Positions 1 to 11,798 of a stretch of 11,798 nucleotides of DNA are shown piece after piece. Position 1 is the first letter of the stretch. The number at the start of each line of letters is the position of its first letter. The stretch is from Chloroflexota bacterium. Lineage in GTDB: Bacteria; Chloroflexota; Anaerolineae; B4-G1. Location: the NCBI GenBank assembly GCA_003648085.1, contig QMOC01000021.1, positions 1 through 11,798 on the forward strand, given 5' to 3'. The notes under the pieces are model-generated. The model ran no database searches. It saw only the letters and a list, made by a program, of their open reading frames with translations, and was not told where the DNA came from. Position numbers and translations under genes: made by a program.

Positions 1-468
1 CCCCCATGCCTGGCGTCCCATCCCCATGCCGCGGCCCATACCCATGCCGCGGCCCATGCCCATGCCACGGCCCATACCCATGCCACGGCCCATACCCATG
101 CCGCGGCCCATGCCCATACCGGCCTGGACATTGGCTCCGGCGACGGATTGGAGTTTCCCTGCCTTGTACGCCTCGACCGCCTCTCGCACCGTCCCGCCCC
201 CGAAGAGGTAAACGGGAACACCCGCGGCCTGGAAGACGTTGAAGGCATTGGGGCCTACGCTTCCGCTCACCACGGCCTGCGCGCCCCGCTCGATGACGAA
301 CTGGGCCGCCTGGATGCCAGCCCCACCCCCGGCGGTGACGGCAGGGTTCTCCGCAGCCTCGAATTGCATGGTCTCCGTGTCAACGAAAATATAGGCTGGA
401 CAGCGCCCGAAGACCGGGCTGGCCGGCGCGTCAAGGTCTGCGCCGTTGGCTGTGACGACGATTTTCAT
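1..468 (-). CDS. NifX/NifB-family Fe-Mo cofactor-binding protein with MGMGRG repeat tail (partial, 3' end off window)
   Basis: This is a member of the dinitrogenase iron-molybdenum cofactor family (NifX/NafY/NifB C-terminal type, about 110-120 residues). These small RNase H-like proteins bind Fe-S or Fe-Mo cluster precursors. Seen: the N-terminus MKIVVTANG, SPVFGRCPAYIFVD at about 17-30, GGGAGIQAAQFVIERGAQAV at about 47-66, and GPNAFNVFQAAGVPVY at about 72-87. From about residue 117 the usual fold ends and a tail of five MGMGRG units plus MGMGRQAWG follows, still open at base 1. The start at 468 is chosen over the in-frame ATG at 474 because GGAGGA (480-475) then sits 6 nt away; the 474 ATG would touch it. 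It is the last visible gene of the minus-strand metal-themed cluster. No nif structural genes are seen, so a role in nitrogenase itself is not implied. The family call is firm; the cofactor is unknown. Confidence 0.88.
   Translation of the reverse strand, partial: MKIVVTANGADLDAPASPVFGRCPAYIFVDTETMQFEAAENPAVTAGGGAGIQAAQFVIERGAQAVVSGSVGPNAFNVFQAAGVPVYLFGGGTVREAVEAYKAGKLQSVAGANVQAGMGMGRGMGMGRGMGMGRGMGMGRGMGMGRGMGMGRQAWG
19..117. repeat. 18-bp tandem repeat encoding MGMGRG
   Basis: On the minus strand an 18-base unit (ATG GGY ATG GGC CGY GGC) occurs five times, plus a diverged sixth unit closer to the left edge. Copies differ only at third positions (GGC/GGT, CGC/CGT), so the protein repeat is kept while the DNA drifts. 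It encodes the tail of the NifX-like protein. Confidence 0.9.
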
Positions 469-474
469 TTGCAT

Positions 475-480
475 TCCTCC
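475..480 (-). promoter_or_regulatory. Shine-Dalgarno site deciding the NifX-like start
   Basis: GGAGGA on the minus strand lies 6 nt before the ATG at 468 and directly abuts the ATG at 474. This spacing favours 468 as the initiation codon. Confidence 0.75.
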
Positions 481-504
481 TGACAAAAGGTTATAATAAT
501 CTTG

Positions 505-533
505 GGTAGGGCAAGATGGCATCTTGCCCTACC
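505..533. repeat. Perfect 13-bp inverted repeat with 3-nt loop
   Basis: The arms GGTAGGGCAAGAT (505-517) and ATCTTGCCCTACC (521-533) are exact complements around GGC. The hairpin lies in the 138-bp gap between the long DUF5320 gene and the NifX-like gene and would form in their shared minus-strand transcript. Neither side has a run of T, so a plain intrinsic terminator is not supported. It could be an attenuator, an RNA processing or stability hairpin, or a copy of a dispersed intergenic palindrome. Confidence 0.85.
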
Positions 534-543
534 GGTGGGGCCC

Positions 544-584
544 CGGGGCGGGTGGCGGAGTGTACGGCGACGTCACCCGCCCCG
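544..584. repeat. Perfect 11-bp GC-rich inverted repeat with 19-nt loop
   Basis: CGGGGCGGGTG (544-554) pairs exactly with CACCCGCCCCG (574-584). It stands between the end of the long DUF5320 gene and the 13-bp hairpin at 505-533. On the minus transcript the two hairpins follow one another within 80 nt, downstream of one gene and upstream of the next. It has no T tract. A role in mRNA stability or in setting the ratio of the two flanking proteins is possible but unproven. Confidence 0.75.
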
Positions 585-606
585 ATGCGTCCCCCTGTGA
601 GCGCGG

Positions 607-990
607 CTACTTCTCCTGCTCGAGTTCCGCGATGCGCTGGCTGATGGCGTCCAGTTGCTCCTTCAGCCACTCAGACTGCGCTTTGAGGAACTCGGCTTCC
701 TGCTCCCGGGTCGGCGGCGCGTAAGGGCCATAGGGTGCGACCGGCGGAGGCCCCCAGGCCGGCGCGTAGCCGAAGCGCGCCCAACCGGGCAGGCCAGTGG
801 CGTAATACCAATGGCGCCAACGCCAGCCACGGCCCCAACCGCCGCCCCAGCCCCGGCCCCAACCCAGGCCGAAGCCGCGCCCGGGGATTGGGTTCGCGTA
901 GCCCGGCACACCATAGCCGGCGCAATAGCCAGCCGCGCGCCCGGTCATCGGCCCCAATCCCATCGGTCCGGTTCCATCTCCACGTGGCAT
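607..990 (-). CDS. DUF5320-family protein (long form, with coiled-coil C-terminus)
   Basis: This 127-residue protein matches the DUF5320 pattern as I know it. It has a conserved N-terminus MPRGDGTGP-x-G-x-GPMTGR, GYCAGY at about 22-27, a central low-complexity stretch rich in Gly, Arg, Trp and Phe (about 36-60), a proline/tyrosine hinge, and a charged C-terminal helix (about 95-126, containing QSEWLKEQLDAISQRIAELE) that looks like a coiled coil. No enzymatic motif is visible. The function of the family is unknown; from experience its genes often sit beside NifX-like proteins and Mrp ATPases, as here. The ATG at 990 has GGAGG at 8 nt; an in-frame GTG nine bases upstream overlaps that site and was not used. 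The neighbouring gene at 1030-1323 is a shorter paralogue, 39 bp away. Confidence 0.85.
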   Translation of the reverse strand: MPRGDGTGPMGLGPMTGRAAGYCAGYGVPGYANPIPGRGFGLGWGRGWGGGWGRGWRWRHWYYATGLPGWARFGYAPAWGPPPVAPYGPYAPPTREQEAEFLKAQSEWLKEQLDAISQRIAELEQEK

Positions 991-998
991 CTCACTCA

Positions 999-1003
999 CC
1001 TCC
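999..1003 (-). promoter_or_regulatory. Shine-Dalgarno site of long DUF5320 gene
   Basis: GGAGG on the minus strand, 8 nt before the ATG at 990. The same GGAGG-8 nt-ATG layout precedes the paralogue at 1323, and in both an in-frame GTG overlaps the site. It rules out the upstream GTG start. Confidence 0.7.
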
Positions 1004-1029
1004 TTTCCATTCCAGGATATGGATTCGCT

Positions 1030-1323
1030 CTACCATCTGCGGGCATAGAACCGTCGGCCCCGTCCCCTGCCCACGCCACGGCCTCGCCCGCGTGCGAACA
1101 TACGCCCCGGTCGCGCCATCGGATGCGACCAACCGGCGAAGCGAGCCCCGGGCACGGGCGGAGCGGCCGACGTCCCCAGGCGCACAGGCGTGCCCTGTAG
1201 CCCGGCGTAACCGTAGGGCGACTCTCCTGTCCCTGGCGGGGGAAGTACCAACGCGCAGTACCCCTCACCGCGCCCGGTCATCGGACCCTGGCCTCGTGGC
1301 CCTGTTCCATCGAACCTTGGCAT
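1030..1323 (-). CDS. DUF5320-family protein (short form)
   Basis: This 97-residue paralogue of the gene at 607-990 shares MPR-x-DGTGP-x-G-x-GPMTGR-x-x-GYCA at the N-terminus. After that it diverges: a proline/glycine-rich middle (about 27-60) and a strongly basic Gly/Arg C-terminus (GRGRGVGRGRGRR, about 82-94) ending YARRW. It lacks the coiled-coil tail of the long form, so the two could be non-equivalent partners. The start ATG has GGAGG (1336-1332) at 8 nt. It lies 39 bp upstream of the long DUF5320 gene and 68 bp downstream of the DUF89 gene, in one minus-strand train. Function unknown. The middle is unusual for the family, so a partly decayed copy cannot be excluded, but frame and start are intact. 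Confidence 0.78.
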   Translation of the reverse strand: MPRFDGTGPRGQGPMTGRGEGYCALVLPPPGTGESPYGYAGLQGTPVRLGTSAAPPVPGARFAGWSHPMARPGRMFARGRGRGVGRGRGRRFYARRW

Positions 1324-1345
1324 CTCGTTCACCTCCCTTCTCTAA

Positions 1346-1402
1346 TCTCTAATCCCCGCTCTCTACTCTCCACTTCTCTAATCCCTGCTCTCTACTCTCC
1401 AC
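1346..1402. repeat. 29-bp-period tandem repeat, two copies, spanning the DUF89 stop codon
   Basis: Two 28-base copies, 1346-1373 and 1375-1402, differ only at 1357 (C) versus 1386 (T). Each is a pyrimidine-rich string of CTCTAATCC and GCTCTCTACTCTCCAC. The copy at 1375-1402 includes the stop codon (1392-1394) and last codons of the DUF89 gene; the other lies in the gap before the short DUF5320 gene. The minus-strand transcript is purine-rich here. It looks like slippage-prone or dispersed intergenic sequence that has grown into the gene end. Confidence 0.85.
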
Positions 1403-2237
1403 CCTGCTTGAGCACGATGCTCCCGACCGGCACGCCCACGTCACGGGCGATGACCGGACACTTCGTCTGTAGCAGGAAAAACGCCTTCGGTCCCTCTTCG
1501 CTCAACGCCTCGTAATTGGCCTGCCCCTTGGCAATGACCAGTTCGGCCTCGTCGTACAGATGCCGGAACTCCTCCGAGCAGCGGCTCAGAATCGTGCCCG
1601 GAGCATCGGAGCCGGTGCTGACGACCTCTGCCACCCGATCCACCCCTGCGGCCAGCGCGTCCTCCATCGTTGCATCGTTCAGGATAGGGCCTCCCTTCAC
1701 CGCGTAGATGACCGGCACGTCGAGCGTCTCGATCAACACCCGGTCGAAGACCGTCTCGCCGGCGTTATCGGCCAGGTAGAGCACCCACCCGGCCCTGAAG
1801 AGCGCTTCGCGAAAGGCCGCCCTAGCGTCAATGGCAAAGGGCTGCGTCAGCACCCGTTCTGCCGCCTCCTCCAGGTCGTATTCCCGGTTTCGGGCCAAGT
1901 CAATGATGTTGCCGGCGATGCTCAGCCGCACGGCCACCTCCAGCGGATCGTCCGCCTCCGCCAGCCGTGCCTTCAGCCGGGGATAGAGGGCCAGCGCCTG
2001 GCGGGTGCAAGCCTCTTTGGCTGCCCGGTACGGGTCGCTGTTCCCGACCTCCCGGCGCACGATGCGATGTACCCGCTCGCCGATCTCCGGCGGCGTGCTC
2101 GACGGCTCGATCTGCCTGAGCACGTCGAGCACGCGGTCGAGCACGGCCCGCTGCTGCCGCTCGTCGGCCCCAGCCATCCGTGCCGCCTCCAGCGCCTGGC
2201 GCAGGAAGCAGGGGTAGCAGTCCAGATAGGTCCTCAT
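1392..2237 (-). CDS. DUF89 / ARMT1-like metal-dependent phosphatase family protein
   Basis: This 281-residue DUF89 protein belongs to the family of metal-dependent damage-control phosphatases and ARMT1-like enzymes, which act on phosphorylated metabolites with a divalent metal. Seen: the N-terminal Y-x-x-CYPCFLRQAL with paired Cys7/Cys10, a helical N-terminal part, IAGNIID at about 107-113, the signature LADNAGETVFD at 155-165 (Asp157, Asn158), KGGPILNDAT at 181-190, and AKGQANYE at 236-243. These are the positions expected for metal and substrate binding. The ATG at 2237 is the only reasonable start, since an in-frame stop lies 15 nt upstream; its ribosome site is weak, with AGGAGT about 19 nt away next to the mrp stop. 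It follows mrp by 22 bp. Substrate unknown; the family call is firm. Confidence 0.92.
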   Translation of the reverse strand: MRTYLDCYPCFLRQALEAARMAGADERQQRAVLDRVLDVLRQIEPSSTPPEIGERVHRIVRREVGNSDPYRAAKEACTRQALALYPRLKARLAEADDPLEVAVRLSIAGNIIDLARNREYDLEEAAERVLTQPFAIDARAAFREALFRAGWVLYLADNAGETVFDRVLIETLDVPVIYAVKGGPILNDATMEDALAAGVDRVAEVVSTGSDAPGTILSRCSEEFRHLYDEAELVIAKGQANYEALSEEGPKAFFLLQTKCPVIARDVGVPVGSIVLKQGGE

Positions 2238-2259
2238 CGCAGATACGATTCAATCACTC

Positions 2260-3330
2260 CTATGGAAAGATCGGCGTCGTTTTTCTCACCGGCACCCGCT
2301 CCATCACCTGCTTGGCGATCGGCTCGAACACCTCCGTCGGGTAATCCTCGACCTCCCCCGCATCGCAGCGGCGGGATAGTTCGGGGTCCAGCGGGAGTTG
2401 CCCTAGCAATGGCACATTGAGACGCAACGCAGTGTGAAATGCCCGACTGGGGCCGAAGATCTCGATCTTCTCCCCACATTTGGGACAGGTGACGTAACTC
2501 ATGTTCTCAACCAGCCCCAGGATGGGTGCTCCCATGTGCTGGGCCATGCGGGCCGCCTTGCGCACCACCATCCCCGCCAGGTCCTGCGGCGAGGTGACCA
2601 GCACCACCCCGCTGAGGGGTATGGACTGCATCACCGTCAGCGAAGCATCGGAGGTGCCGGGGGGCAGGTCCACGATCAGGCAATCCAATTCGCCCCAGAA
2701 GACTTCATTCCAGAACTGTTTGATGGCGCTGCTGATGAGCGGGCCACGCCAGATGACAGCCTCATCCTCGCTGGGCAGCAGCAGATTGATGGACATCACC
2801 TTGATGCCACCAGGAGTTTCGGCGGGGAGGATGCCCGTCGGACTCATCAATGGCGGCTCGTGGAGGCCGAACATTTTGGGGATGCTGGGGCCGGTGATGT
2901 CGGCGTCGAGCACGCCCACTCGCTTCCCCTGCCGTCGCAGCGCCACCGCCAGCAGTGCCGCCACCGACGATTTACCGACGCCCCCCTTCCCGCTCAGCAC
3001 GGCCACCACGTGGGTAATCTTGTTCGCAGACTGCGCCGGCTTAGGGCCGCCCTCGGCCATACCCATGAACGCGGCGCGCTCCTTCTGGCTCATCTCGGTC
3101 AAATTGACTTCAACCTGCAAGTTTGCGTCTAACTTCGTGATCACCCCTTTGACCATACGCACCAAGTCGTCTTTGATTGGGACTTCCGCGAAAGGCAGTG
3201 CCAGCGTAAGCGAGACTTTCTCATCCTGGATGCTTACGTCTTTGATCATCCCCAGTTCGACCAGATTGTGCTTGATCTCGGGGTGCATCACCCCACGCAA
3301 GGCGTCAAGAATCTGTTTGTCCGTTATCAT
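2260..3330 (-). CDS. mrp: Mrp/NBP35-type Fe-S cluster carrier ATPase with N-terminal MIP18 domain
   Basis: This 356-residue P-loop ATPase of the Mrp/ApbC/NBP35 group carries and delivers Fe-S clusters in the cytosol. The N-terminal MIP18 (DUF59) domain covers about 1-80 (GVMHPEIKHNLVELGMI). The ATPase starts near 106: deviant Walker A SGKGGVGKSS at 113-122 with signature Lys115, DADITGPS at 142-149, the Mrp hallmark WRGPLIS at 194-200, Walker B-like LIVDLPPGTSD at 218-228, and CPKCGE with Cys282/Cys285, the pair that bridges a cluster between subunits in this family. Length and order are normal. GGAGG lies 3 nt before the ATG. The first 26 bases overlap the end of the small upstream gene, so coupling is likely. 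In this cluster it is the obvious candidate to load or pass Fe-S clusters to partner proteins. Confidence 0.95.
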   Translation of the reverse strand: MITDKQILDALRGVMHPEIKHNLVELGMIKDVSIQDEKVSLTLALPFAEVPIKDDLVRMVKGVITKLDANLQVEVNLTEMSQKERAAFMGMAEGGPKPAQSANKITHVVAVLSGKGGVGKSSVAALLAVALRRQGKRVGVLDADITGPSIPKMFGLHEPPLMSPTGILPAETPGGIKVMSINLLLPSEDEAVIWRGPLISSAIKQFWNEVFWGELDCLIVDLPPGTSDASLTVMQSIPLSGVVLVTSPQDLAGMVVRKAARMAQHMGAPILGLVENMSYVTCPKCGEKIEIFGPSRAFHTALRLNVPLLGQLPLDPELSRRCDAGEVEDYPTEVFEPIAKQVMERVPVRKTTPIFP

Positions 3331-3496
3331 TTTCCTCCCTCGGTAAGATTGTGTTCTCCTCGCCCTCGGCTCGGCTCTCGGGCGGATGTATTAAAGTGCG
3401 AATTTCGGTCCGAAATCGCTCTTCGTCGTAGGACGGCAGGCCGTACATGGATTCCAGAAAGGCACGCACCTTGGCCACTCCTCGCCTCCAGTTCAT
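3305..3496 (-). CDS. Small conserved-looking protein of unknown function (63 aa)
   Basis: The predicted product is a 63-residue charged protein (MNWRRGVAKVRAFLESMYGLPSYDEERFRTEIRTLI at the start; keep to its features: a basic amphipathic N-terminal helix, a central Asp/Glu-rich turn, an acidic tail). It has no cysteine, membrane segment or family motif that I recognise. Support for it being real: GGAGG lies 7 nt before its ATG, its ATG overlaps the TGA of the DUF364 gene as ATGA, and its own stop lies 26 bases inside mrp in another frame. It therefore fills the whole gap between two genes of the train. It may act as a small accessory to the DUF364 protein or the Mrp ATPase, or serve to couple translation. 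A longer in-frame extension upstream lies inside the DUF364 gene and is not used. Confidence 0.65.
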   Translation of the reverse strand: MNWRRGVAKVRAFLESMYGLPSYDEERFRTEIRTLIHPPESRAEGEENTILPREENDNGQTDS

Positions 3497-4236
3497 GATC
3501 GTTCCTCCCGCATCATCGTCAGCAGCCGCTTGCCCGGTATCTGGGGGAAGGTGGCCCCCTGGCTTACGGCCCGCAGCACGGCCGGCACGTCCACCACCAA
3601 CGTCCCGGCGACCGCGTCCACGCGGTAATCGAACAGCACCGGCGTAAGCGGCGCACTGCCGCCGAGGAGGATGACGAAAGCGTCGGGCCGGCACAGGCCG
3701 ATCAAGTCGTCAAACGTGTGGTTGGTGAGCGACGTGCCGGTTAGAGCGACCACGTCCGCCTGGGGCAGCACCTCGGCCGCCCGCTCGGCGGGGATGTCCC
3801 CAAGGCGGGGATGCTGTTCCACCACCCAGCAGGTCGCCGCCGCCCGCCGCACCCGCTCCACGAACGGGAAGTGACCCACGATGGCCACCCGCCGTCCGGC
3901 TCCTCGCTCCACGATGACTTCCTCGGCGTTGACCTCGGTGCAGGCGGCCTCGTCCACATCCAGCAAAGCGTTGAACGCTGCCATACCGATGCTTGCCTCC
4001 AGCGTGCTGGAGGAGCGAAGCAGCATCGCCAGTTCTCGTCCGCTGCGTTTCAGGAGACGCCCGGCGTCGGGAACCGGCGGGCCTTCATCGTGCGTCTCTC
4101 CGCGCAGCGCGGAGGCCAGGCCACAGCGGGGCGGGTCGGTGTCCAGCACTACCGCCGTCCAGAAAGCCCCCACCAGCACCTGGGCTACCCTCGCGTCGCC
4201 CTGCAGGCTCCCCAACAGCGCCTCAATGGTATTCAC
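3493..4236 (-). CDS. DUF4213/DUF364 family protein (putative heavy-metal chelation)
   Basis: This 247-residue protein has an N-terminal DUF4213 part (about 1-95; VLVGAFWTAVVL at 20-31, STLEASIGMAAFNALL at 77-92) and a C-terminal DUF364 Rossmann-like part (about 105-240; VAIVGHFPFVERVR at 117-130, ALTGTSLTNHTFDDLI at 164-179, GGSAPLTPVLFDY at 192-204, AGTLVVD at 210-216). The family is annotated as putative heavy-metal chelation and has been linked to metal-cofactor handling; its chemistry is not established. The start is taken as GTG at 4236, since homologues begin just before an x-x-LL-x-x-L helix and GGAGG lies about 9 nt upstream; the ATG at 4284 would add 16 residues that only mirror the PadR reading frame. 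The gene overlaps padR by 14 bases and the next small gene by 4. Confidence 0.88.
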   Translation of the reverse strand: MNTIEALLGSLQGDARVAQVLVGAFWTAVVLDTDPPRCGLASALRGETHDEGPPVPDAGRLLKRSGRELAMLLRSSSTLEASIGMAAFNALLDVDEAACTEVNAEEVIVERGAGRRVAIVGHFPFVERVRRAAATCWVVEQHPRLGDIPAERAAEVLPQADVVALTGTSLTNHTFDDLIGLCRPDAFVILLGGSAPLTPVLFDYRVDAVAGTLVVDVPAVLRAVSQGATFPQIPGKRLLTMMREERS

Positions 4237-4612
4237 CCTTGCCTTCCTCCATGTGCCGGCTGTAGGCACCCAGGACGTGATCAATCAGCCTGCGCGTCTC
4301 CTGCAAGTCCTGCGTCCACAGGCTCAGCGCCTCGTTCCCCAGCGCGGTGAGATGATAAACCCGCCGGGGCGGCCCCTGCGTCTGCTCTGTATCCCAGGTG
4401 GAGGTGACCCACCCCCGGCCCTCCATATCTCGCAGCGCCCGGTAGACCACACTGGGATTCAATCCCCCCAGGCCGAACTCTCCCAATCGCTCCAGGAGGG
4501 TATAGCCGTGGGCCGGTCCGTAGTGCAAGAGCAGGAGCAGCGTCGGTTCCAGGAACCGCACTGCCCGGCGGGAACAGCCCCGCCAGCGCCACCTCCCACC
4601 CTGTCCTCGCAT
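4223..4612 (-). CDS. PadR-family transcriptional regulator
   Basis: This 129-residue regulator has the PadR winged-helix fold: RFLEPTLLLLLHYGPAHGYTLLERL at about 19-43 is the typical first helices with the HGY turn, LNPSVVYRALRDMEGRGWV at 51-69 is the recognition helix region, and GPPRRVYHLTALGNEAL at 80-96 is the wing and following helix. The C-terminal helix (about 97-120) is the dimerisation part. A basic, Trp/Arg-rich N-terminus (1-18) precedes it. PadR proteins are usually repressors released by a small ligand or stress signal, and often control their own operon. It is the first gene of the minus train, about 43 nt from the predicted transcription start. GAGGT lies before the ATG. The near-palindrome over the -10 (4659-4672) is the best candidate operator. 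The family is clear; the ligand is unknown. Confidence 0.93.
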   Translation of the reverse strand: MRGQGGRWRWRGCSRRAVRFLEPTLLLLLHYGPAHGYTLLERLGEFGLGGLNPSVVYRALRDMEGRGWVTSTWDTEQTQGPPRRVYHLTALGNEALSLWTQDLQETRRLIDHVLGAYSRHMEEGKGEYH

Positions 4613-4658: not shown

Positions 4659-4672
4659 TGTAGTATACCACA
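4659..4672. promoter_or_regulatory. Candidate PadR operator: near-palindrome over the padR -10
   Basis: TGTAGTATACCACA matches its own reverse complement at 12 of 14 positions and covers the whole -10 box of the padR promoter. A second, looser symmetric pair, ACTAT (4672-4676) and ATAGT (4690-4694), flanks the spacer. CAAATTG is also repeated directly at 4680-4686 and 4695-4701. Autoregulation by PadR is inferred. Confidence 0.5.
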
Positions 4673-4690
4673 CTATGTGCAAATTGTCAA
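4662..4690 (-). promoter_or_regulatory. Sigma-70 type promoter of the padR-to-nifX-like train
   Basis: On the minus strand, TTGACA (4690-4685, a perfect -35) is followed by 17 bases and TATACT (4667-4662, five of six). The predicted transcription start is near 4655, giving a leader of about 43 nt before padR. It is the best promoter match in the window. The only other gaps in this train (39-138 bp) show no comparable signal, so it likely drives all eight genes. Confidence 0.85.
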
Positions 4691-4814: not shown

Positions 4815-5234
4815 ATGACGGACAGGTGGACAGGTATATGGATGGGGATAACACACAGCTACGCCGAGGTCGAACGGTTGATGGGCGAAGGATGGATTAT
4901 CTGCCGGCACACCGGCACCTGGCAGCCCCCCACGGACATCTACGAAAGCGACGATGGGTTGGTGGTGCAAATTGAGGTCGCGGGGATGCGAAGCGAGGAT
5001 TTCTCCATCTCACTGGCGGGACAGACGCTGGTCATCGCCGGTGTGCGCACGGATGTGACGCCCAAGCGGACGTATTATCAGATGGAAATTCGCTTTGGTG
5101 AGTTCCGCGCTGAGATTACTCTGCCCTGGCCGGTGAAGCCGGAGAATGTGGAGGCCAGTTACGAGGATGGGTTTCTGAAAGTCCGTCTTCCGTGTCCCCA
5201 GCCGCAGCGTGTGCCGGTCATTGGAACGAGGTAA
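4815..5234 (+). CDS. hsp20: Small heat-shock protein, Hsp20/alpha-crystallin family
   Basis: This 139-residue cytosolic chaperone holds unfolding proteins without ATP. The alpha-crystallin domain spans about 37-127: [23 protein letters not shown] at 36-58, [15 protein letters not shown] at 64-78, then the segment [33 protein letters not shown] at 94-126, whose GFL-x-V-x-LP ending is the family hallmark. The C-terminus RVPVIGT carries a V-x-V motif of the I/V-x-I/V type that links oligomers. The N-terminal arm is short and begins MTDRWTG. The start at 4815 has AGGAG at 6 nt; the upstream GTG at 4794 has no such site. It is the first gene after the plus-strand promoter, and lon begins 20 bp after its stop, which fits joint heat or damage induction. 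Confidence 0.95.
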
Positions 5235-5254
5235 TGGGAGGATTGAAGGAGCGA

Positions 5255-7771
5255 ATGTCGAATAAAGAGAGAAGAAAAACAAGCGGGTGGTTGAGTGTGC
5301 TAGGTCGTCCGGCGGTCACGAAGAAGCACGCCGGTTTGTCGGAGGAGGAAGGAAGTGAGGTGCTCCACATCCCTTCCCACCTTCCGATTTTGCCGTTACG
5401 GGGATTGGTCGTCTTTCCACTGACGGCAGTGCCAATCCGCGTTGGTCAGCCGCGCTCCATCCGTCTGATTGACGACGCCGTGCTCGGAAAGCGGCTCATC
5501 GGGCTCGTGGCCAGTCGAGATCCAGAACTGGAGACGCCGGGGCCAGACGATGTTTATCGCATCGGAACCATCGCAGCAGTTCACCGTCTGTTCAAAGCGC
5601 CGGATGGGACGATCACGCTGATCATGCAGGGGTTGATGCGCATTCGGGTGGAGGAATTCGTCAGCGAGTCGCCCTATCTGACGGCGCGTGTGTCTGTGGT
5701 CCCGGAGAAAGTCGAGACGTCGGTAGAGGTCGAGGCCCTGCAGCGGAGCATCGCGGAGGGCTTTCACCGCCTGACCGAGTTAGTGCCTGCAGTGCCCGAG
5801 GAAATGAGTACGATGATCGTCAACGTGGACGATCCGCTGCAACTCGTCTACGCAGTGGCCAATCTGATGAAGATTGACCTGGAGGACGCGCAGCGGCTCC
5901 TGGAACTGGATAGCCTCACCGACAAGTTACGCTTGCTGCTGAGTCTGCTGACGAAGGAACTGGAGGTACTCGAACTGGGGCACAAGATCCGCAGCGAGGC
6001 TCAGTCGGAGATGGAGAAGACGCAGCGTGAGTACTTCCTGCGCGAGCAACTCAAGGCTATCAAGAGGGAACTGGGCGAGGCCGACGAGCAGCAGATGGAA
6101 GTGGAGGAATTCCGCAAGAAAATCGAGACGGCGGGGATGCCGGAGGAGGCGGAGAAGGAGGCGCGCCGCGAATTGGACCGGCTGAGCAAACTCCCCACTG
6201 CTGCGGCTGAGTACAGCGTCATTCGCACGTACCTGGATTGGTTGACCAGTCTGCCGTGGAACGTGCAAACCGAGGACAATCTGGACATCGCACACGCCCG
6301 CCAGGTGCTTGATGAGGACCACTACGATCTGGAAGAGATCAAGGAGCGCATCCTGGAATACCTGGCCGTGCGTAAATTGCGGGAGGAACGCAAAGAGGAG
6401 TTCGAGCAGGAGGAGCCGGCCGACCTCATCCGGCGCGAGCGGGAAGGGGTCATTCTCTGTTTCGTGGGGCCACCTGGCACGGGCAAGACCAGTCTGGGAC
6501 GCTCCATCGCGCGGGCACTGGGCCGTAAGTTCATCCGCCAATCGTTGGGCGGCGTGCGCGACGAGGCGGAGATCCGCGGTCACCGCCGCACCTACATCGG
6601 TGCGCTGCCAGGCCGGATCATCCAGGCACTGCGGCGGGTGGGATCGAAGAACCCGGTCTTCATGCTCGACGAGGTTGACAAACTGGGGACGGATTTCCGG
6701 GGTGACCCGGCGGCTGCACTGCTGGAGGTATTGGACCCGGAGCAGAACCGCGAGTTCCGCGATCATTACCTGGACGTGCCCTTCGATCTCTCTCAGGTGA
6801 TGTTTATCACCACAGCCAACTGGCTCGATCCTATCCCGGCACCCCTGCGAGACCGGATGGAGATTTTGGAACTTTCGGGCTACACTGAGACGGAGAAGGT
6901 GCGCATCGCCCAGGGATACCTCATCCCCCGCCAACTGCGGGAGAACGGCCTGCGGCCCGAGGAGTTGAGTTTCACCGATGGTGCGCTGCGTAAGATCATC
7001 CGCGACTACACCCGCGAGGCCGGGGTGCGTAACCTGGAGCGAGAGATCGGGCGGGTCTGCCGCAAGGTAGTGACCCGCATCGCCGAGGGGAACACGGAGC
7101 CGGTGCGTGTGACAGCGCACGACGTGCCCAAGTTCCTGGGGAAGCCACGCTACTTCCCGGAGACGGCGTTGCGCACTCAGTTGCCCGGTGTGGCCACGGG
7201 TCTGGGCGTCACAGCCGCCGGTGGGGATTTGCTGTTCTGCGAAGCCACCAAGATGCCCGGCAGTAAGGGATTTATGGTCACCGGGCAGTTGGGCGAAGTG
7301 ATGAAGGAATCGGCACAGGCAGCGCTCAGTTACGTGCGTTCCAAGGCCAAGGAACTGGGCATCTCGGAGGACATCTTTGAAAAAACCGACATTCACTTGC
7401 ACGTGCCGGCGGGCGCGGTGCCCAAAGATGGCCCCTCGGCCGGAGTCACTATGGCCACCGCCCTGGCCTCCCTGCTGACCGGTCGCCGGGTGCGCGATGA
7501 CGTGGGGATGACGGGGGAGATCACGTTACGCGGGCAGGTGCTGCCCGTGGGTGGCATCAAAGAGAAGGTTCTGGCAGCCCATCGGGCCGGTCTCAACGTT
7601 GTCATCCTGCCCAAGCAGAACGAAAAAGACCTCGATGACATACCTGAGGAAGTGCGCAAGAGCCTCAAGTTCATTCTGGCCGAGCGGGTGGACGACGTAT
7701 TTGAGGCTGCATTGGTGTCGGATGGGCGAGAGCAGCACGATTCCACAAAGGAGAGAAAGGCTGAGCAGTGA
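5255..7771 (+). CDS. lon: ATP-dependent protease Lon (LonA)
   Basis: This 838-residue LonA protease unfolds and degrades damaged and regulatory proteins in the cytosol. A charged leader of about 40 residues precedes the LON substrate-binding domain (about 42-240, [20 protein letters not shown]), then a long coiled coil (about 240-340). The AAA+ module follows, with Walker [10 protein letters not shown] at 405-413 and Walker [10 protein letters not shown] at 468-476. The protease domain carries catalytic Ser728 in PKDGPSAG and Lys771 in GGIKEK, the normal Ser-Lys dyad at the spacing seen in E. coli Lon. The ATG at 5255 has AAGGAG just upstream; ATG 5234, overlapping the hsp20 stop, would add 7 residues and has a poorer site. 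The stop overlaps the receiver GTG by 4 bases (GTGA). The coding sequence appears intact. Confidence 0.97.
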
Positions 7772-8139
7772 ACACCGTTCTCGTAGTAGATGACGACAAA
7801 GTCTTCAGTGGGCTTCTCAAAACGATATTTGAGTTGGAAGGGTACCGGGCGGTGATCGTGCTTCGCCCAGATGAAGTGGTGCCTACGGCCCGTCGGGTGA
7901 AGCCCGTGCTGGTGCTGATGGATTTGCACCTCTCACGTGGAGATACGCTAAGCGTGCTGCGGGAACTGCGGGCGGACGAGACGTTGAAGGCGGTGCCGGT
8001 GCTGATGACCTCGGGTATGGACCGTTCCGGGGAATGCCTGGCCGCCGGGGCCGATGCCTTCATTCTCAAGCCTTTCCGCCCGGCCCAGTTATTGGCAATG
8101 GTTGCAGATTTAGTTGAGGGACAGGACACAGATACATGA
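7768..8139 (+). CDS. Stand-alone response-regulator receiver (CheY-like)
   Basis: This 123-residue receiver domain has no output domain. Seen: the acidic pocket VVDDD at 6-10, phosphoacceptor Asp52 in LVLMDLHL, a Thr81/Ser82 switch position in VPVLMTSG, and Lys101 in AFILKPF, so it should be phosphorylatable. No histidine kinase is encoded in the window, so its partner lies elsewhere. The start is the GTG that overlaps the lon stop (GTGA), with AAGG 7 nt upstream. The end overlaps the start of the PHP gene (ATGA). Receivers without output act by binding a protein partner; the tight coupling to lon and the PHP-AlbA gene makes either product a candidate target, which is inference. Confidence 0.93.
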
Positions 8140-9842
8140 GAAAGCGAAGGAAAGGACGAGGTAAACTTCAGTGGAGGCGGGTTGATCTGCACCTGCATAC
8201 CCCCGCCTCCACTGACTATCTTGAACCAGGGGTTTCATACCTGGACATTTTACGAGAGGCCGAGCGCAAGGGGCTCGACATTATCGCCTTCACCGACCAC
8301 AACACGGTGGCCGGTTATCGAGCGATGCTGGAGGAGATCGAAGCCCTCGAGTTGCTCGAGCACCTGGGGCGGCTGCGGCCGGAGGAGAAGCAGCGGCTCA
8401 AGGAGTACCGCCGCCTGCGAGAGAAGTTGTTGGTGCTACCGGGGTTCGAGTTCACCGCCACTCTGGGCTTTCACATCCTCGGCATCTTCTCGCCTGAGAC
8501 AGACGTGCGGGAACTGGAGTTCATCCTGCGTCGGCTTAATATCCCGCTGGATAAACTCGACGCCGGCAGCAGCGAGGTGGGGGCGACGACCGACGTGCTG
8601 ACTGCTTATCGGGTCATTGACGAGGCTAGTGGTATCGTCATCGCGGCCCACGCCAATTCTGCTCACGGTGTGGCAATGCGGAGGTTGGGATTCGGCGGGC
8701 AGACGCGCATTGCCTACACCCAGGATCCTCACCTCCACGCGCTGGAGGTGACTGATCTTGAGAAGAAAGGACGGCACACGACGGCGCGCTTCTTCGACGG
8801 CTCGCGTCCGGAGTATCCGCGCCCTATGCGTTGCATTCAGGGTTCCGATGCCCATCGGCTCACCCGGGACCCCAGGGATGCCAAGCACTTGGGCGTGGGG
8901 GATCGGGTGACGGAGGTGCTTCTGCCTGAGATCAGTTTCGCCGCGCTGCGGGAGGTGTTCGTGGGCAACGACCTGGCCCGCACACGGCCCTACCGGGCGG
9001 CCAAAGCACCGCTGGATCATATCCAGGCAGCGCGGGAAGAGGGGCCCACGATTGTGCAGGACTTCCACGTCGGTTACACCCGCCGGGGCGGGCGGCTTTA
9101 TGCCATCTTGGCCGATGTCTGCGCCTTCGCCAACACCAACGGGGGCACCATCTACGTCGGTGTCAGCGCCGACCCCGAGGAGCGGCCGGCTGGAGTGAGC
9201 AATCCCTCACGGGTGGTCAAGACACTGCAAGCCGAGATCGAACGCCGTATCACGCCTCCCCTCGACGTCACGGTGGACGTGCAGAAGACGCAGGGGGTGA
9301 AGGTGGTGCGGGTGGTAGTGCCTCGGGGCGACGATCCACCTTACGCCATTGACGATAACAAGATTTATGTGCGCAGCGAGACGGAGACCAACCTGGCGGT
9401 GCGGGATGAGATCGTGAATCTGGTCAAGCGGGCCCAGGCGGGGCCTGCGATCGTGCCGGTGGCGGAACCCGTAGGCCGCATTGAGCCACCCCGAACGGGG
9501 GTGGAGATTGTGGAGACACAGGAGCGCAAGGGCACGCTTTATCACACGATGCGCGATCTGCGCAACGGCAACGTGGTCAAGAACGTCACCCGACAGTCGG
9601 CACGGCGGCTATGGCATTACGCTATCACTCAGGCCGAGGAGCATCCGGCAGACCCCAGCAAGGTCGAGTGGCACGGGGACATCGGCCTGCTCAAGCGACG
9701 GGAGCACGCCGGTCAGGCGCGTTACGATCTGGTGCAGCGAGAGGACGGCAAACTGCGCGTCTACTACGGGGTGACGGAGGACGGCATTCACGGGGAGTGG
9801 GCGCGAGTGGTCGGACTGGCGCCAGAGGGGATAGAAGATTAG
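8136..9842 (+). CDS. PHP phosphoesterase fused to AlbA_2 (Schlafen-like) domain, with unrecognised C-terminal region
   Basis: This 568-residue three-part protein starts with a PHP domain (about 12-285) carrying the full trinuclear metal set: DLHLHT (His19, His21), FTDHN (Asp54, His55), GFEF (Glu105), GFHILGIF (His113), AAHAN (His172), and GSDAH (Asp238, His240). PHP domains hydrolyse phosphoesters in nucleotides, DNA ends or sugars. An AlbA_2 domain (about 292-432) follows, with ADVCAFANTNGGTIYVGV at 326-343 and NKIYVRSETETNLA at 408-421, a fold found in Schlafen-like and nucleic-acid-linked proteins. The last 110 residues (about 455-568; LWHYAITQAEEHP at 492-504, VEWHGDIGLLK at 510-520, RVYYGVTEDGIHGEW at 541-555) match no family I can name. 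A basic N-terminus precedes the PHP domain. The start overlaps the receiver stop (ATGA). A role in nucleic-acid repair, RNA turnover or defence is possible; none is shown. Confidence 0.88.
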   Translation: MRKRRKGRGKLQWRRVDLHLHTPASTDYLEPGVSYLDILREAERKGLDIIAFTDHNTVAGYRAMLEEIEALELLEHLGRLRPEEKQRLKEYRRLREKLLVLPGFEFTATLGFHILGIFSPETDVRELEFILRRLNIPLDKLDAGSSEVGATTDVLTAYRVIDEASGIVIAAHANSAHGVAMRRLGFGGQTRIAYTQDPHLHALEVTDLEKKGRHTTARFFDGSRPEYPRPMRCIQGSDAHRLTRDPRDAKHLGVGDRVTEVLLPEISFAALREVFVGNDLARTRPYRAAKAPLDHIQAAREEGPTIVQDFHVGYTRRGGRLYAILADVCAFANTNGGTIYVGVSADPEERPAGVSNPSRVVKTLQAEIERRITPPLDVTVDVQKTQGVKVVRVVVPRGDDPPYAIDDNKIYVRSETETNLAVRDEIVNLVKRAQAGPAIVPVAEPVGRIEPPRTGVEIVETQERKGTLYHTMRDLRNGNVVKNVTRQSARRLWHYAITQAEEHPADPSKVEWHGDIGLLKRREHAGQARYDLVQREDGKLRVYYGVTEDGIHGEWARVVGLAPEGIED

Positions 9843-9875
9843 CGAAGAAGCCGAGTGGTGCGCGAAGGAGGGCCT

Positions 9876-11183
9876 ATGAAGTCCCGCTATCGTTGGTTCG
9901 TCGTGTGCGTGTTCTTCCTGTTTATGCTCCTCCACCAAGCCGACAAGTTGCTCATCGGCCCGCTTACCACGTCCATCATAGAGACGTTTGGCATCAGCAA
10001 GGCACAAATGGGGGCGGTGTTCACCGGCGCATTGGTGGTCGGAGCAGTGTTTTACCCGCTTTGGGGCTACCTGTACGACCGCTACGCGCGCTCGAAACTG
10101 CTGGCGGCGGCCTCGTTTATCTGGGGCTCGACCACGTGGCTCAGCGCCATCGTACCCACCTATCCGGCTTTCCTTGCCACGCGCGCTTCGACGGGCATTG
10201 ATGACTCCAGTTATCCCGGCCTTTACAGCCTGATCTCCGACTACTTCGGGCCACGGGTGCGCGGCCGGATTTACGGGCTGCTCCAGGTCGCTATGCCTCT
10301 GGGCTATATCACGGGGATGGTTCTGGCCTCCACGTTGAGCGGTGTGGTGGGCTGGCGCGGCGTGTTTTATATCACCGGATCTGTCGGCGTACTACTCTCC
10401 ATCCTGATCTTCTTCGGTGTGCGCGAGGTTCCGCGCGGCAAAGGCGAGCCCGAACTGGCAGACCTGGAGCGGATCAGTGTCTACCGTTTCGATTGGAAGA
10501 CCGCCCGGGGGCTGTTTCGTAGGCGCAGCCTGCGCCTCCTGTTCGTCCAGGGGTTCTTTGGCGTCTTCCCGTGGAACGTCATCACCTACTGGTTTTTCCA
10601 CTACCTGGAAACCGAGCGGGGCTATTCCTCAGACGCCGTGCTGATGACGATGGTGGTGGCAGTGCTGGTGTTGGCCTCTGGCTACTTTATCGGCGGAATG
10701 GTAGGAGATTTCTTCTTCAAGCGCACGCCGCGCGGCCGGTTGCTTGTCTGTACGGCGGCCGTGCTGCTGGGGGCCATCCTGCTGGCGATAACCCTCAACA
10801 TCCCGCCGGGAAATCGGGGCCTCTTCCTGATGCTGCTCAGCCTCACGGCCCTGTTCATCCCCTTCGCCTCGCCCAACGTGACCTCAACGATCTCCGACGT
10901 CACCCTGCCGGAGGTACGCAGCACGGCAATGGCGGTGCAATACTTCATCGAGTCGGCTGGTGCGGCGCTGGCCCCCCTGCTGGCCGGCCTGATCGCCGAC
11001 CGTTCGTCCCTGGGGAACGCCATCCTGCTTATCTGCGTCTCTGCGTGGGTACTTTGCTCGCTTTTCTTCGCCTTCGCTGCCTACCTGGTGCCGCGCGACA
11101 TCGAGGCCCTGCGCCGGGCGATGCGGGAGCGGGCGGAGCGGGAGCGAGCAGAAAAGGGGACGACGTCTATTTCCTTGGGCTGA
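9876..11183 (+). CDS. MFS transporter, Spinster-like
   Basis: This 435-residue major facilitator protein of the inner membrane shows about twelve hydrophobic segments, for example 8-20, 47-63, 76-93, 161-181, 255-273, 289-307, 316-331 and 383-404. Motif A appears as GYLYDRYARSK after segment 2 (64-74), with a second-half echo GMVGDFFFKRTPRG at 274-287. The first-half stretch ending DDSSYPGLYSLISDYFGP and RGRIYGLL resembles the Spinster/organic-anion type of MFS protein. The C-terminus (410-428) is an Arg/Glu-rich cytosolic tail. The ATG at 9876 has AAGGAGG just upstream; the GTG at 9855 would put the ribosome site inside the gene. It starts 33 bp after the PHP-AlbA gene, so it may share the operon, but its substrate and link to proteostasis are unknown. 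Confidence 0.9.
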   Translation: MKSRYRWFVVCVFFLFMLLHQADKLLIGPLTTSIIETFGISKAQMGAVFTGALVVGAVFYPLWGYLYDRYARSKLLAAASFIWGSTTWLSAIVPTYPAFLATRASTGIDDSSYPGLYSLISDYFGPRVRGRIYGLLQVAMPLGYITGMVLASTLSGVVGWRGVFYITGSVGVLLSILIFFGVREVPRGKGEPELADLERISVYRFDWKTARGLFRRRSLRLLFVQGFFGVFPWNVITYWFFHYLETERGYSSDAVLMTMVVAVLVLASGYFIGGMVGDFFFKRTPRGRLLVCTAAVLLGAILLAITLNIPPGNRGLFLMLLSLTALFIPFASPNVTSTISDVTLPEVRSTAMAVQYFIESAGAALAPLLAGLIADRSSLGNAILLICVSAWVLCSLFFAFAAYLVPRDIEALRRAMRERAERERAEKGTTSISLG

Positions 11184-11190
11184 TGTGCCG

Positions 11191-11798
11191 ATGACAATGC
11201 CCAGAGCCAAAAGCCCAAGGGCCAAAAATCAGCACTCGCTGGAGTTGTTAGTCTCGGGCGCTCGCGAATTGAATATCACGCTCACCGAGCGCCACCTCAC
11301 CGCCTTCGAGACCTATTACCAGGAGTTGGTGGCCTGGAACCGGCGCTTCAACTTGACCGCCATCACCGATTGGGAGGGGGTGCTGGTACGTCATTTTCTC
11401 GATTCCCTCTCCTGTCTTAAGGCGCTGCCCCGGGCCGAACTGGCGGCCGGGGCGCGGGTGATTGACGTGGGCACAGGGGCAGGGTTTCCGGGATTGCCGC
11501 TCAAAATTGTCTGCCCGGGGATACGATTGACGCTGCTGGAGGCGACGGGCAAGAAAGTGACCTTTCTGGAACACATCGTGCGTGTACTGGGACTGAGGGG
11601 GGTGCGGGCGATCAAGGGACGGGCGGAGGAACTGGGACGCAGCCCGGCCCACCGCGAGCGGTACGATTGGGCGCTGGCCCGCGCCGTGGCGGAGATGCCG
11701 ACGTTGGCGGAATATCTGCTGCCGCTGGTGCGGGTGGGGGGCGCGGTGCTGGCACAGAAAGGTGAGGAGGCCGCCGCCGAGGTGCACGGAGCCGACGC
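11191..11798 (+). CDS. rsmG: 16S rRNA (guanine-527-N7) methyltransferase RsmG (partial, 3' end off window)
   Basis: RsmG (GidB) methylates G527 of 16S rRNA with S-adenosylmethionine. The 202 residues visible include L-x-AFETYYQELVAWNRRFNLTAI at about 36-58, HFLDSL at 68-73, the SAM-binding loop DVGTGAGFPGLPLKI at 92-106, LLEATGKKVTFLE at 115-127, ARAVAEMPTL at 163-172 and AQKG at 188-191. All are usual for the family, which is about 210-240 residues long, so only the end is missing. The start is uncertain: ATG 11191, ATG 11197 and GTG 11185 are in frame, none with a clear ribosome site, and translation may simply reinitiate after the MFS stop 7 nt upstream. The first 13 residues include a repeated PRAKS/PRAKN and may not be conserved. 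Confidence 0.93.
   Translation, partial: MTMPRAKSPRAKNQHSLELLVSGARELNITLTERHLTAFETYYQELVAWNRRFNLTAITDWEGVLVRHFLDSLSCLKALPRAELAAGARVIDVGTGAGFPGLPLKIVCPGIRLTLLEATGKKVTFLEHIVRVLGLRGVRAIKGRAEELGRSPAHRERYDWALARAVAEMPTLAEYLLPLVRVGGAVLAQKGEEAAAEVHGAD
11200..11229. repeat. 15-bp imperfect tandem repeat encoding PRAKS-PRAKN
   Basis: CCCAGAGCCAAAAGC (11200-11214) is followed at once by CCAAGGGCCAAAAAT (11215-11229). In the rsmG frame they read PRAKS and PRAKN. The base composition resembles intergenic filler rather than an rsmG N-terminus, which suggests the gene start took over spacer sequence. Confidence 0.7.

Follow-up and report, generated by a model that had tools for sequence, protein, structure and literature searches.

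What might a PadR-family regulator, an Mrp/NBP35 carrier ATPase, a NifX-like DIM protein and two DUF5320 proteins do together in one stretch of bacterial DNA? The question bears on the storage of iron and sulfur in strict anaerobes, and within the literature found the one thioferrate store described is IssA, going by the accessible part of its paper (PMC5524996). For the storage question, the analysis below defines a widespread set of genes that includes a partner family, DUF5320; it offers a common helix for mutation and a promoter-operator for assay, and places DUF5320, DUF364 and one PadR subfamily in a testable biological setting.

Gene arrangement

The window, that is, the whole stretch of DNA analysed, is the entire contig C21 (11,798 bp) of an assembly that is 83% complete. 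Its open reading frames place eight minus-strand genes in series at 1..4612, with padR first and the NifX-like DIM gene last, just where a preliminary description had put them. A Pfam search of the window, covering these eight module genes, backs with E-values every family name given earlier and leaves the 63-residue protein without a family, as had been said. The PadR-family regulator (4223..4612; PF03551, 1.7e-16) carries an Arg/Gly-rich N-terminal extension, seen on comparison with the N-termini of relatives. It is followed by a DUF4213-DUF364 protein (3493..4236; PF04016, 3e-38, and PF13938, 1.3e-15; structures 3l5o and 3npg), whose start, judged by homology, is most likely the GTG at 4236, by the poorly conserved 63-residue protein (3305..3496), and by an Mrp/NBP35 Fe-S carrier ATPase (2260..3330; PF10609, 2.7e-93, and PF01883, 5.4e-14) with a FeS_assembly_P domain, a P-loop and a CPKC motif; its best NCBIfam model is NF041136, at a score of 319, below the cut-off of 450. 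Next come a DUF89/ARMT1-like protein of the metal-dependent phosphatase family (1392..2237; PF01937, 3e-69; structures 2g8l and 2ffj), a short, strongly cationic DUF5320 protein (1030..1332; pI 11.8), and a second DUF5320 protein (607..999) in which a Gly/Arg/aromatic part precedes a 32-residue C-terminal helix predicted by AlphaFold; PF17253 matches the two DUF5320 proteins with E-values of 1.5e-27 and 1.4e-9. The DIM gene (1..468, starting at 468) is cut by the contig end and is thus incomplete. An apparent link between DUF89 and iron storage (PMC5126674) was a false lead, since the text, in the part available, concerns DUF892.

Overlaps among the first four genes, also proposed earlier, amount to 14 nt (PadR/DUF364), 4 nt (DUF364/63-residue protein, ATGA) and 26 nt (63-residue protein/Mrp), stop codons counted. 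The gap between the second DUF5320 gene and the DIM gene is 138 nt long and holds a palindrome found elsewhere in the same genome and a weak promoter-like match (9/12), so that a single transcript over all eight genes stays putative. No RNA family or tRNA scored above threshold in the window.

Conservation of the gene set

Co-location was surveyed in 199 genomes of the host's class, two genes being counted as linked when within 7 kb of each other, with the genomes holding both as denominator. DIM was linked to PadR in 53 of 62 genomes, to DUF5320 in 33 of 41 and to Mrp in 33 of 49, as against 17 of 46 for DUF364 and 5 of 22 for DUF89. The gene set is thus real and widely conserved, with a constant core of PadR, Mrp/NBP35, DUF5320 and DIM genes making up about half of the eight, and with DUF364 and DUF89 as accessories. 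The check for co-conservation had been set beforehand and the core withstood it; the counts reject a loose neighbourhood as the whole explanation of the core. The earlier reading of all eight genes as one unit has to be narrowed to the four core families, as DUF364 and DUF89 come and go, the 63-residue protein is matched in only one of the 80 fetched loci (L070, where both of its ends match a longer reading frame), and relatives carry further genes downstream. The carriers are probably oxygen-avoiding microbes.

The further genes after the module are a second DIM protein and, in some relatives, MinD-Fer4 ATPases, which were recognised by motif in 8 of 27 module loci, five of them with two or more. 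The window itself has DIM and Mrp in one locus and ends inside the DIM gene; MinD-Fer4 is seen in relatives only. Also near the module in relatives are genes for NifU_N, ferredoxin, MobB/FeS, CooT and radical SAM proteins, and one relative's second DIM protein matches the DIM part of MrpORP (NF041136, 5e-16). A role in the assembly or storage of a metal or Fe-S cluster, as first suggested, gains support from Mrp, the tailed DIM proteins and the relatives' NifU_N, ferredoxin and MinD-Fer4 neighbours. That no nitrogenase is present likewise held, PF00148 having no match in the host's own assembly (83% complete), and nitrogenase maturation is rejected for this genome, where a NifD/K-type client (PF00148) would have to be served. 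No client enzyme was recognised among the 17 families found in at least 3 of the 27 module loci, some of which were searched against the family library.

Promoter and operator

The strong promoter of the preliminary description is TTGACA-N17-TATACT (4662..4690, minus strand), which lies ahead of padR and matches 11 of 12 hexamer positions. Relatives of this promoter stand upstream of 18 other padR genes: among the 19 regions compared, 18 agree with the hexamers at 11-12 of 12 positions (in one case with a 16-nt spacer) and one agrees at 9. Inside the spacer lies an inverted repeat, GCACATAGTGTG (4669..4680, minus strand), a putative PadR operator that occupies the same position in nearer relatives. 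The whole operator pattern is exact in six of the 19 upstream regions, has one mismatch in two and at least five mismatches in six, and is thus kept in nearer relatives (8/19 with 0-1 mismatch) and not in all. Across the 199 genomes, each of the eight sites with 0-1 mismatch has a PadR homologue immediately downstream. The promoter-operator common to relatives, together with these eight sites, makes autoregulation of the module by PadR at the putative operator likely, and in this respect the PadR control proposed earlier is supported.

The host genome has one further match, with three mismatches (C52:7749-7775). In the fetched stretch L149 a called reading frame of 447 residues follows it on the same strand after about 60 nt, so that the site may be a second PadR target. 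A wider PadR regulon was not borne out, as most of the weaker sites (6/10 with two mismatches, 41/49 with three) have no listed PadR match next to them.

The DIM and DUF5320 proteins

The DIM protein joins an orange-protein/IssA-type domain at its N-terminus (PF02579/IPR003731, 1.9e-22) to a Gly/Met/Arg tail with MGMGRG repeats. The nearest solved relatives of the domain are MTH1175, ORP and TM1290. By phmmer MTH1175 is nearest and ORP second-best, whilst Foldseek, given the model of a relative's DIM protein, places apo-ORP 2wfb first (E 9.7e-10, 42% identity). MTH1175 served as a model of IssA in the IssA paper, where the portion available names it an IssA-type protein (PMC5524996).

The 44 visible residues of the window's tail have a pI of 12.0, a Gly fraction of 0.43 and an Arg+Lys fraction of 0.14; aromatics, taken as F, W, Y and H, make up 0.02, against 0.11-0.19 in the DUF5320 proteins. 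Tails of nine relatives were compared and lower basicity was seen in two, with pI values of 7.2 and 10.7; AlphaFold gives a relative's tail low pLDDT. The DUF5320 proteins resemble stand-alone tails in sequence and, outside the helix, have no confident fold in AlphaFold (mean pLDDT 53.6).

The DUF5320 protein, the tailed DIM protein and the second DIM protein end in similar helices in most of the complete relatives; the window's own DIM protein reaches the contig end before any such helix. AlphaFold models the helix as a separate 32-residue element in both the window's DUF5320 protein and a relative's DIM protein. A profile of 29 DUF5320 C-termini (E <= 0.01) matches 17 of 21 and 10 of 11 C-termini of the two DIM types. 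Among 1039 other called proteins it matches only 3, each of them a DUF5320 end left unlabelled by the gene caller. This caller was composition-scored and forced by homology; its boundaries are rough and some DUF5320 genes are cut short. Of four DIM proteins missed by the profile, two (L092 and L100) are without such a terminal helix. Among the homologues listed for a relative's tailed DIM protein, 116 of 120 carry both PF17253 (DUF5320) and PF02579.

Discussion

The module appears, by its sequences, to be of the IssA/ORP kind in a new form, with PadR, Mrp, DUF5320 and a common helix. IssA (PF2025 of Pyrococcus furiosus) and IssX share with the window protein a DIM domain followed by a cationic glycine-rich tail. 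IssX was an uncharacterised clade with glycine-rich high-pI tails in 2017, and for IssA homologues Fe-S storage has been proposed, possibly also in bacteria (PMC5524996, in the sections available). IssA is taken here from its published description and the module from its genes, with a thioferrate conjectured. In contrast to the aromatic-rich tail described for IssA, the window tail has Met/Gly/Arg repeats with few aromatics; a helix ends the tail in most complete relatives, aromatic-rich tails stand on separate DUF5320 proteins, and the frequent partners of the DIM protein are PadR and Mrp. The Desulfovibrio ORP complex is alike in its DIM fold (2wfb), in an Mrp-type ATPase and, in some relatives, in MinD-Fer4 ATPases resembling Orp3/Orp4; its description, in the text available, has two divergent sigma54-dependent operons in place of PadR, and DUF5320, a cationic tail and PadR do not figure in it (PMC6345978). 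MrpORP, a fusion of Mrp to DIM, likewise has these functions together, but in the module they are separate genes and the DIM protein is tailed.

The explanation we favour, while giving it somewhat less than an even chance, is a PadR-autoregulated anaerobic module for the storage and assembly of iron sulfide, as thioferrate-like Fe-S, with iron as its presumed metal. DIM domains would nucleate an anionic metal-sulfide, which the cationic tails would wrap, whilst the common helices would co-assemble the DUF5320, tailed DIM and second DIM proteins into larger particles. Mrp, with ATP, would load clusters on or take them off so that they reach apo-enzymes. Bound to the inverted repeat between the -35 and -10 elements, PadR would hold the operon down until released by the Fe-S load or a related signal, and DUF364 and DUF89 may be optional enzymes handling a metal-chelating or phosphorylated small molecule. 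A quite unlikely elaboration is that DIM nucleators and DUF5320 co-polymerise via the 32-residue helix in an organelle-like particle, the Arg/Gly-rich arm of PadR sensing the metal-sulfide polymer and so measuring the store directly. Points for storage are the core co-location, promoter and operator, DIM relatives, IssA-like tail, the DUF5320 match in nearly all listed homologues of a relative's tailed DIM protein, the common helix, and the NifU_N, ferredoxin, MinD-Fer4, MobB/FeS and CooT neighbours in relatives. Counting against it are the best fold match, ORP, whose cluster is a Mo-Cu sulfide and not thioferrate (PMC6345978, part seen); the MobB/FeS and CooT neighbours, which suggest Mo and Ni as much as Fe; the few aromatics in the window tail and the less basic tails of two relatives; and the six upstream regions with a diverged operator and the two DIM proteins without the helix.

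An ORP-like alternative, in which DIM carries a discrete Mo-Cu or similar heterometal-sulfide cluster in a complex with Mrp and MinD-Fer4 and the tails serve assembly only, is possible if rather unlikely. It draws on the 2wfb match, on the MinD-Fer4 ATPases, on the MrpORP-like second DIM protein and on the MobB/FeS neighbours; but the 2wfb chain, at 120 residues, has no room for such a tail, Orp9 is without the cationic IssA tail according to the available text of the MrpORP paper (PMC6345978), regulation there is sigma54-dependent, and the Pfam search of the eight module genes showed no Mo transport gene in the window. Delivery in place of storage, with DIM and DUF5320 as carriers between NifU/Mrp and a CODH, hydrogenase or molybdoenzyme and with DUF364 and DUF89 making a metal ligand, would suit the NifU_N, MobB/FeS, CooT, radical SAM and ferredoxin genes, as well as the metal-chelation role for which the DUF364 structure paper argues in the part seen (PMC2954201). 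We consider it unlikely, since no client was recognised in the families examined, and cationic tails and a common helix would be more in keeping with a polymer or particle than with a carrier.

It is improbable, finally, that the unit is PadR, Mrp, DUF5320 and DIM with DUF364, the 63-residue protein and DUF89 as chance passengers. Such a loose neighbourhood would agree with the low linkage of DUF364 and DUF89 and with the DUF364 tree, on which the label 'module' needs 14 changes, a single origin of module-linked DUF364 not being found. However, this is lower than in any of 500 shuffles (mean 22.9), linkage of the two genes is far above chance (a simple estimate gives well under 1% for a 7-kb distance and a genome of 4 Mb), and of 18 relatives with an adjacent PadR, 14 likewise have, by homology, an 11-nt PadR/DUF364 overlap. 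The neighbours of DUF364 in 54 loci outside the module are mixed, giving no functional answer. Dhaf4260 (3l5o) belongs to the same family as the window's DUF364 protein (profile E 1.3e-30), which, unlike Dhaf4260, sits in an Fe-S module; in the available part of their paper, its authors list PadR among the genome-context partners of Dhaf4260 (PMC2954201).

Conservation of the module core

The module was first described as eight minus-strand genes in series, and this layout stands: from 4612 down to 1 lie the genes for PadR, a DUF4213-DUF364 protein, a 63-residue protein, Mrp/NBP35, a DUF89/ARMT1-like protein, two DUF5320 proteins and the DIM protein ('NifX-like', with a dinitrogenase iron-molybdenum cofactor domain); successive overlaps of 14, 4 and 26 nt link the first four. 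The host assembly comprises 559 contigs at 83.1% completeness, and the window is its contig C21 entire. The DIM gene (minus strand, start at 468) is truncated by the contig end; its reading frame breaks off after five MGMGRG repeats and an altered sixth, and the C-terminus is absent.

Linkage was surveyed in 199 genomes of the class, the window's own among them, with DUF364, DUF89, PF17253, PF02579, PadR and Mrp as queries. The stronger matches were used: 65 for DUF364 (to E of about 1e-40, with a G054 fragment counted in), 26 for DUF89 (weak matches and second fragments excluded), 45 for DUF5320 (about one per locus, excluding weak matches and those inside DIM reading frames), at least 144 for DIM, 97 for PadR (E to about 1e-16) and 67 for Mrp (E to about 6e-109). 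Counted as genomes with at least one pair within 7 kb over genomes holding both families in these lists, linkage was 53/62 for DIM-PadR, 34/42 for PadR-DUF5320, 33/41 for DIM-DUF5320, 33/49 for DIM-Mrp and 32/52 for PadR-Mrp; in a 4-Mb genome a simple estimate puts chance linkage of two single genes far below 1%. DUF364 was linked to PadR in 18/43 genomes, to DIM in 17/46 and to Mrp in 13/31, and DUF89 to DIM in 5/22.

A second survey, not independent of the first since some contigs are common to both, took the best 80 of 308 DUF364-relative loci from named GTDB genomes, together with the window. A DIM or Mrp homologue lay within 6 kb of DUF364 in 27 of the 81, the module loci. These held DIM (23), an 'Mrp cluster' that mixes Mrp with related P-loop ATPases (20), DUF5320 (17), PadR (16), a NifU_N protein (9) and DUF89 (6), several contigs being too short for all genes. 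The order PadR-DUF364-Mrp-(DUF89)-DUF5320-DUF5320-DIM-DIM recurs in loci L039, L042, L043 and L050, and with extra genes interspersed in L057; the host of L050 is Candidatus Zipacnadia (Armatimonadota), the others being Chloroflexota. Of 18 relatives in which PadR adjoins DUF364, 14 show by homology an 11-nt overlap of the two genes, which overlap in the window too.

Because of these pair linkages and locus counts, PadR, Mrp, DUF5320 and DIM are the core of the module and DUF364 and DUF89 accessories. The eight-gene module proposed in the preliminary description thus narrows to a core of these four, leaving out DUF364, DUF89 and the 63-residue protein, which has one further match.

Promoter and candidate operator

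A sigma-70-type promoter lies upstream of PadR in 19 of 19 loci, including the window (TTGACA-N17-TATACT, 4690-4662, minus strand). It matches the hexamers at 11-12 of 12 positions in 18 loci (spacer 17 nt in 17, 16 nt in one) and at 9 in one. Between the -35 and -10 is an inverted repeat, CACA-TAG-TGTG, and the pattern TTGACA-N4-GCACATAGTGTG-N-TATA was scored in the 19 regions. There were no mismatches in six (the window and five relatives), one in two, three in four, four in one, five in two, six in one and eight or nine in three; among 1,900 letter-shuffled versions the lowest was six, once, though shuffling of this kind does not correct for the presence of a promoter. The nearer loci thus keep the operator part; in the farther ones it has changed or disappeared. 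Across the 199 genomes, at up to three mismatches, there were 67 listed matches against 2 for a reversed control. All eight sites with at most one mismatch lay just upstream of a PadR match on the same strand, and sites beside a PadR match made up 4 of 10 at two mismatches and 8 of 49 at three. The position of the low-mismatch sites makes it likely that the inverted repeat is the PadR operator and that PadR represses its own operon. The control by PadR that had been suggested is supported, at the level of sequence, in the nearer loci though not in all.

An Arg/Gly-rich N-terminal extension, often with Cys, is present in most of 34 listed PadR N-termini (some from the same contigs); that it acts as a sensor would be speculative. 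This arm (4560-4612 in the window, and in relatives) resembles the RG tails of the proteins that PadR would control. On contig C52 of the same genome (L149:1346-2776), a three-mismatch copy of the promoter-operator lies about 60 nt upstream of a 447-aa reading frame; it may mark another target of PadR or simply be a promoter.

Cationic tails and a common C-terminal helix

By sequence, the solved structures nearest the DIM domain are MTH1175 (1eo1, 5.6e-19), the orange protein ORP (2wfb, 3.8e-17) and TM1290 (1rdu, 4.7e-17). For a complete relative, from locus L156, AlphaFold gave a model with a mean pLDDT of 79.3 (mostly 95-97 in the DIM part), whose nearest fold is apo-ORP (E 9.7e-10, 42% identity), then TM1290. 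The 44 tail residues that lie in the window have a pI of 12.0, G 0.43, R+K 0.14, M 0.27 and no acidic residues; among nine relatives' tails the pI is 12.0 in seven, and 10.7 and 7.2 in the others. The window's tail shares its glycine content and high pI with the tails of the IssX clade, named in 2017, and its glycine and cationic character with that of IssA. The IssA tail is described as rich in aromatics too; it is predicted to lack structure, and anionic thioferrate is its proposed ligand (PMC5524996). The long DUF5320 protein (residues 1-98: pI 10.2, G 0.27, aromatics including His 0.19) and the short one (pI 11.8, aromatics including His 0.11) look like stand-alone versions of such IssA/IssX-like tails. 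When 37 homologues close to the long protein (74-92% identical to it) are aligned, one Cys, W58-R59, A64-T65-G66 and P68-G69-W70 are invariant.

Similar ends of about 32 residues are found on the tailed DIM, second DIM and long DUF5320 proteins of most complete relatives. A profile built on the ends of 29 DUF5320 proteins, among them short ones that lack the helix, matched (E <= 0.01) 17 of 21 first-type DIM ends, 10 of 11 second-type ends and 3 of 1039 other called proteins, these three being DUF5320 ends cut off by the gene caller. Four ends of the first type were missed: those of L043 and L046, which still resemble the rest, that of L092, where the tail finishes in glycine repeats, and that of L100, where the protein is a different one. 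Mean best ungapped identity between families over 28 residues was 0.33-0.36, against 0.20-0.21 when shuffled. AlphaFold predicts a helix at 95-126 in the window's long DUF5320 protein (core pLDDT 94-97; residues 1-88 nearly all below 50) and another in the DIM protein of L156, at 173-204; that of the window's DIM protein would fall past the contig end. Independently of the profile, Pfam DUF5320 and PF02579 occur together in 116 of 120 listed homologues of the L156 protein (the best 120 of 6,699), so the joint architecture is already in the precomputed Pfam matches; no paper on it was found in the open-access library searched, judged by listing and title.

Proposed mechanism and metal load

DIM domains would nucleate a metal-sulfide, which the DIM and DUF5320 proteins would wrap with their cationic tails; the C-terminal helices would co-assemble the tailed proteins, Mrp would exchange clusters, and PadR would keep the operon down until need rises. 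The basis for this scheme is the gene content, the linkage of the core, the promoter-operator in nearer relatives, the cationic tails and the helix in most complete relatives. That the hosts are strict anaerobes is an assumption, made from the types of organism and gene involved.

The metal is the weakest step. The tail favours thioferrate of the IssA type, the apo-ORP fold match and the MobB neighbours in relatives an ORP-type Mo/Cu cluster. Pfam assigned nine of ten neighbour proteins, as radical SAM, ferredoxin, metallo-beta-lactamase fold, CooT, MinD-type ATPase with Fer4, C_GCAxxG_C_C, NifU_N, MobB/FeS and DsbD-like proteins; ten, partly overlapping these, were also scanned against NCBIfam. 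Such neighbours are those that accompany the handling of Fe-S and heterometal cofactors. MinD-Fer4 ATPases were found by motif in 8 of the 27 module loci (two or more in 5) and in 6 of 15 further stretches, some of them longer pieces of the same contigs. The neighbours, these ATPases included, recall the Desulfovibrio ORP complex, described as containing Orp3 and Orp4 (two Fer4 motifs each), Orp8 and MrpORP (PMC6345978). No client enzyme was recognised among the 17 gene families, part of them library-searched, present in at least 3 of the 27 loci. At L156:5443-6689, downstream of the DIM genes, a NifU_N scaffold gene adjoins a MobB-FeS gene.

We class the module with the IssA and ORP systems. 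The individual parts were known already, and so was the tailed IssX clade (PMC5524996); new, in our view, are the grouping of PadR, Mrp, DUF5320 and DIM into one core with a candidate operator, DUF5320 as a detached tail of IssA/IssX-like proteins, and the helix common to DUF5320 and DIM proteins.

Accessory genes and flanking sequence

The 138 nt between DUF5320 and the DIM gene contain a palindrome, GGTAGGGCAAGATGGCATCTTGCCCTACC (505-533). The genome has near-copies of it on contigs C278, C431, C207 and C173, which makes it a dispersed repeat; it may be a terminator or resemble a REP element, and the eight genes may therefore not all share a transcript. Divergent from the module, the plus strand (4842-11796) encodes, as named from translations, a small heat-shock-like protein, Lon protease, a response-regulator receiver protein, a PHP-domain protein, an MFS transporter and, truncated where the contig stops, an RsmG-like methyltransferase.

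The 63-residue protein has its one further match in L070 (3527-3985), in a longer frame that lies between the DUF364 and Mrp genes; its two ends align there, as if it were a shortened form of that frame. DUF89 proteins are reported to be metal-dependent phosphatases (PMC8669784). The authors of the DUF364 structure 3l5o propose that it makes or hydrolyses a metal-chelating molecule (PMC2954201), and by analogy it may do so here. DUF364 also lies near other genes without the module and therefore has other settings: in the 54 non-module loci (of the best 80 of 308), the neighbours, named by eye, include radical SAM (7 loci), methyltransferase-like (10 and 8 loci) and zinc-finger-like (7 loci) proteins.
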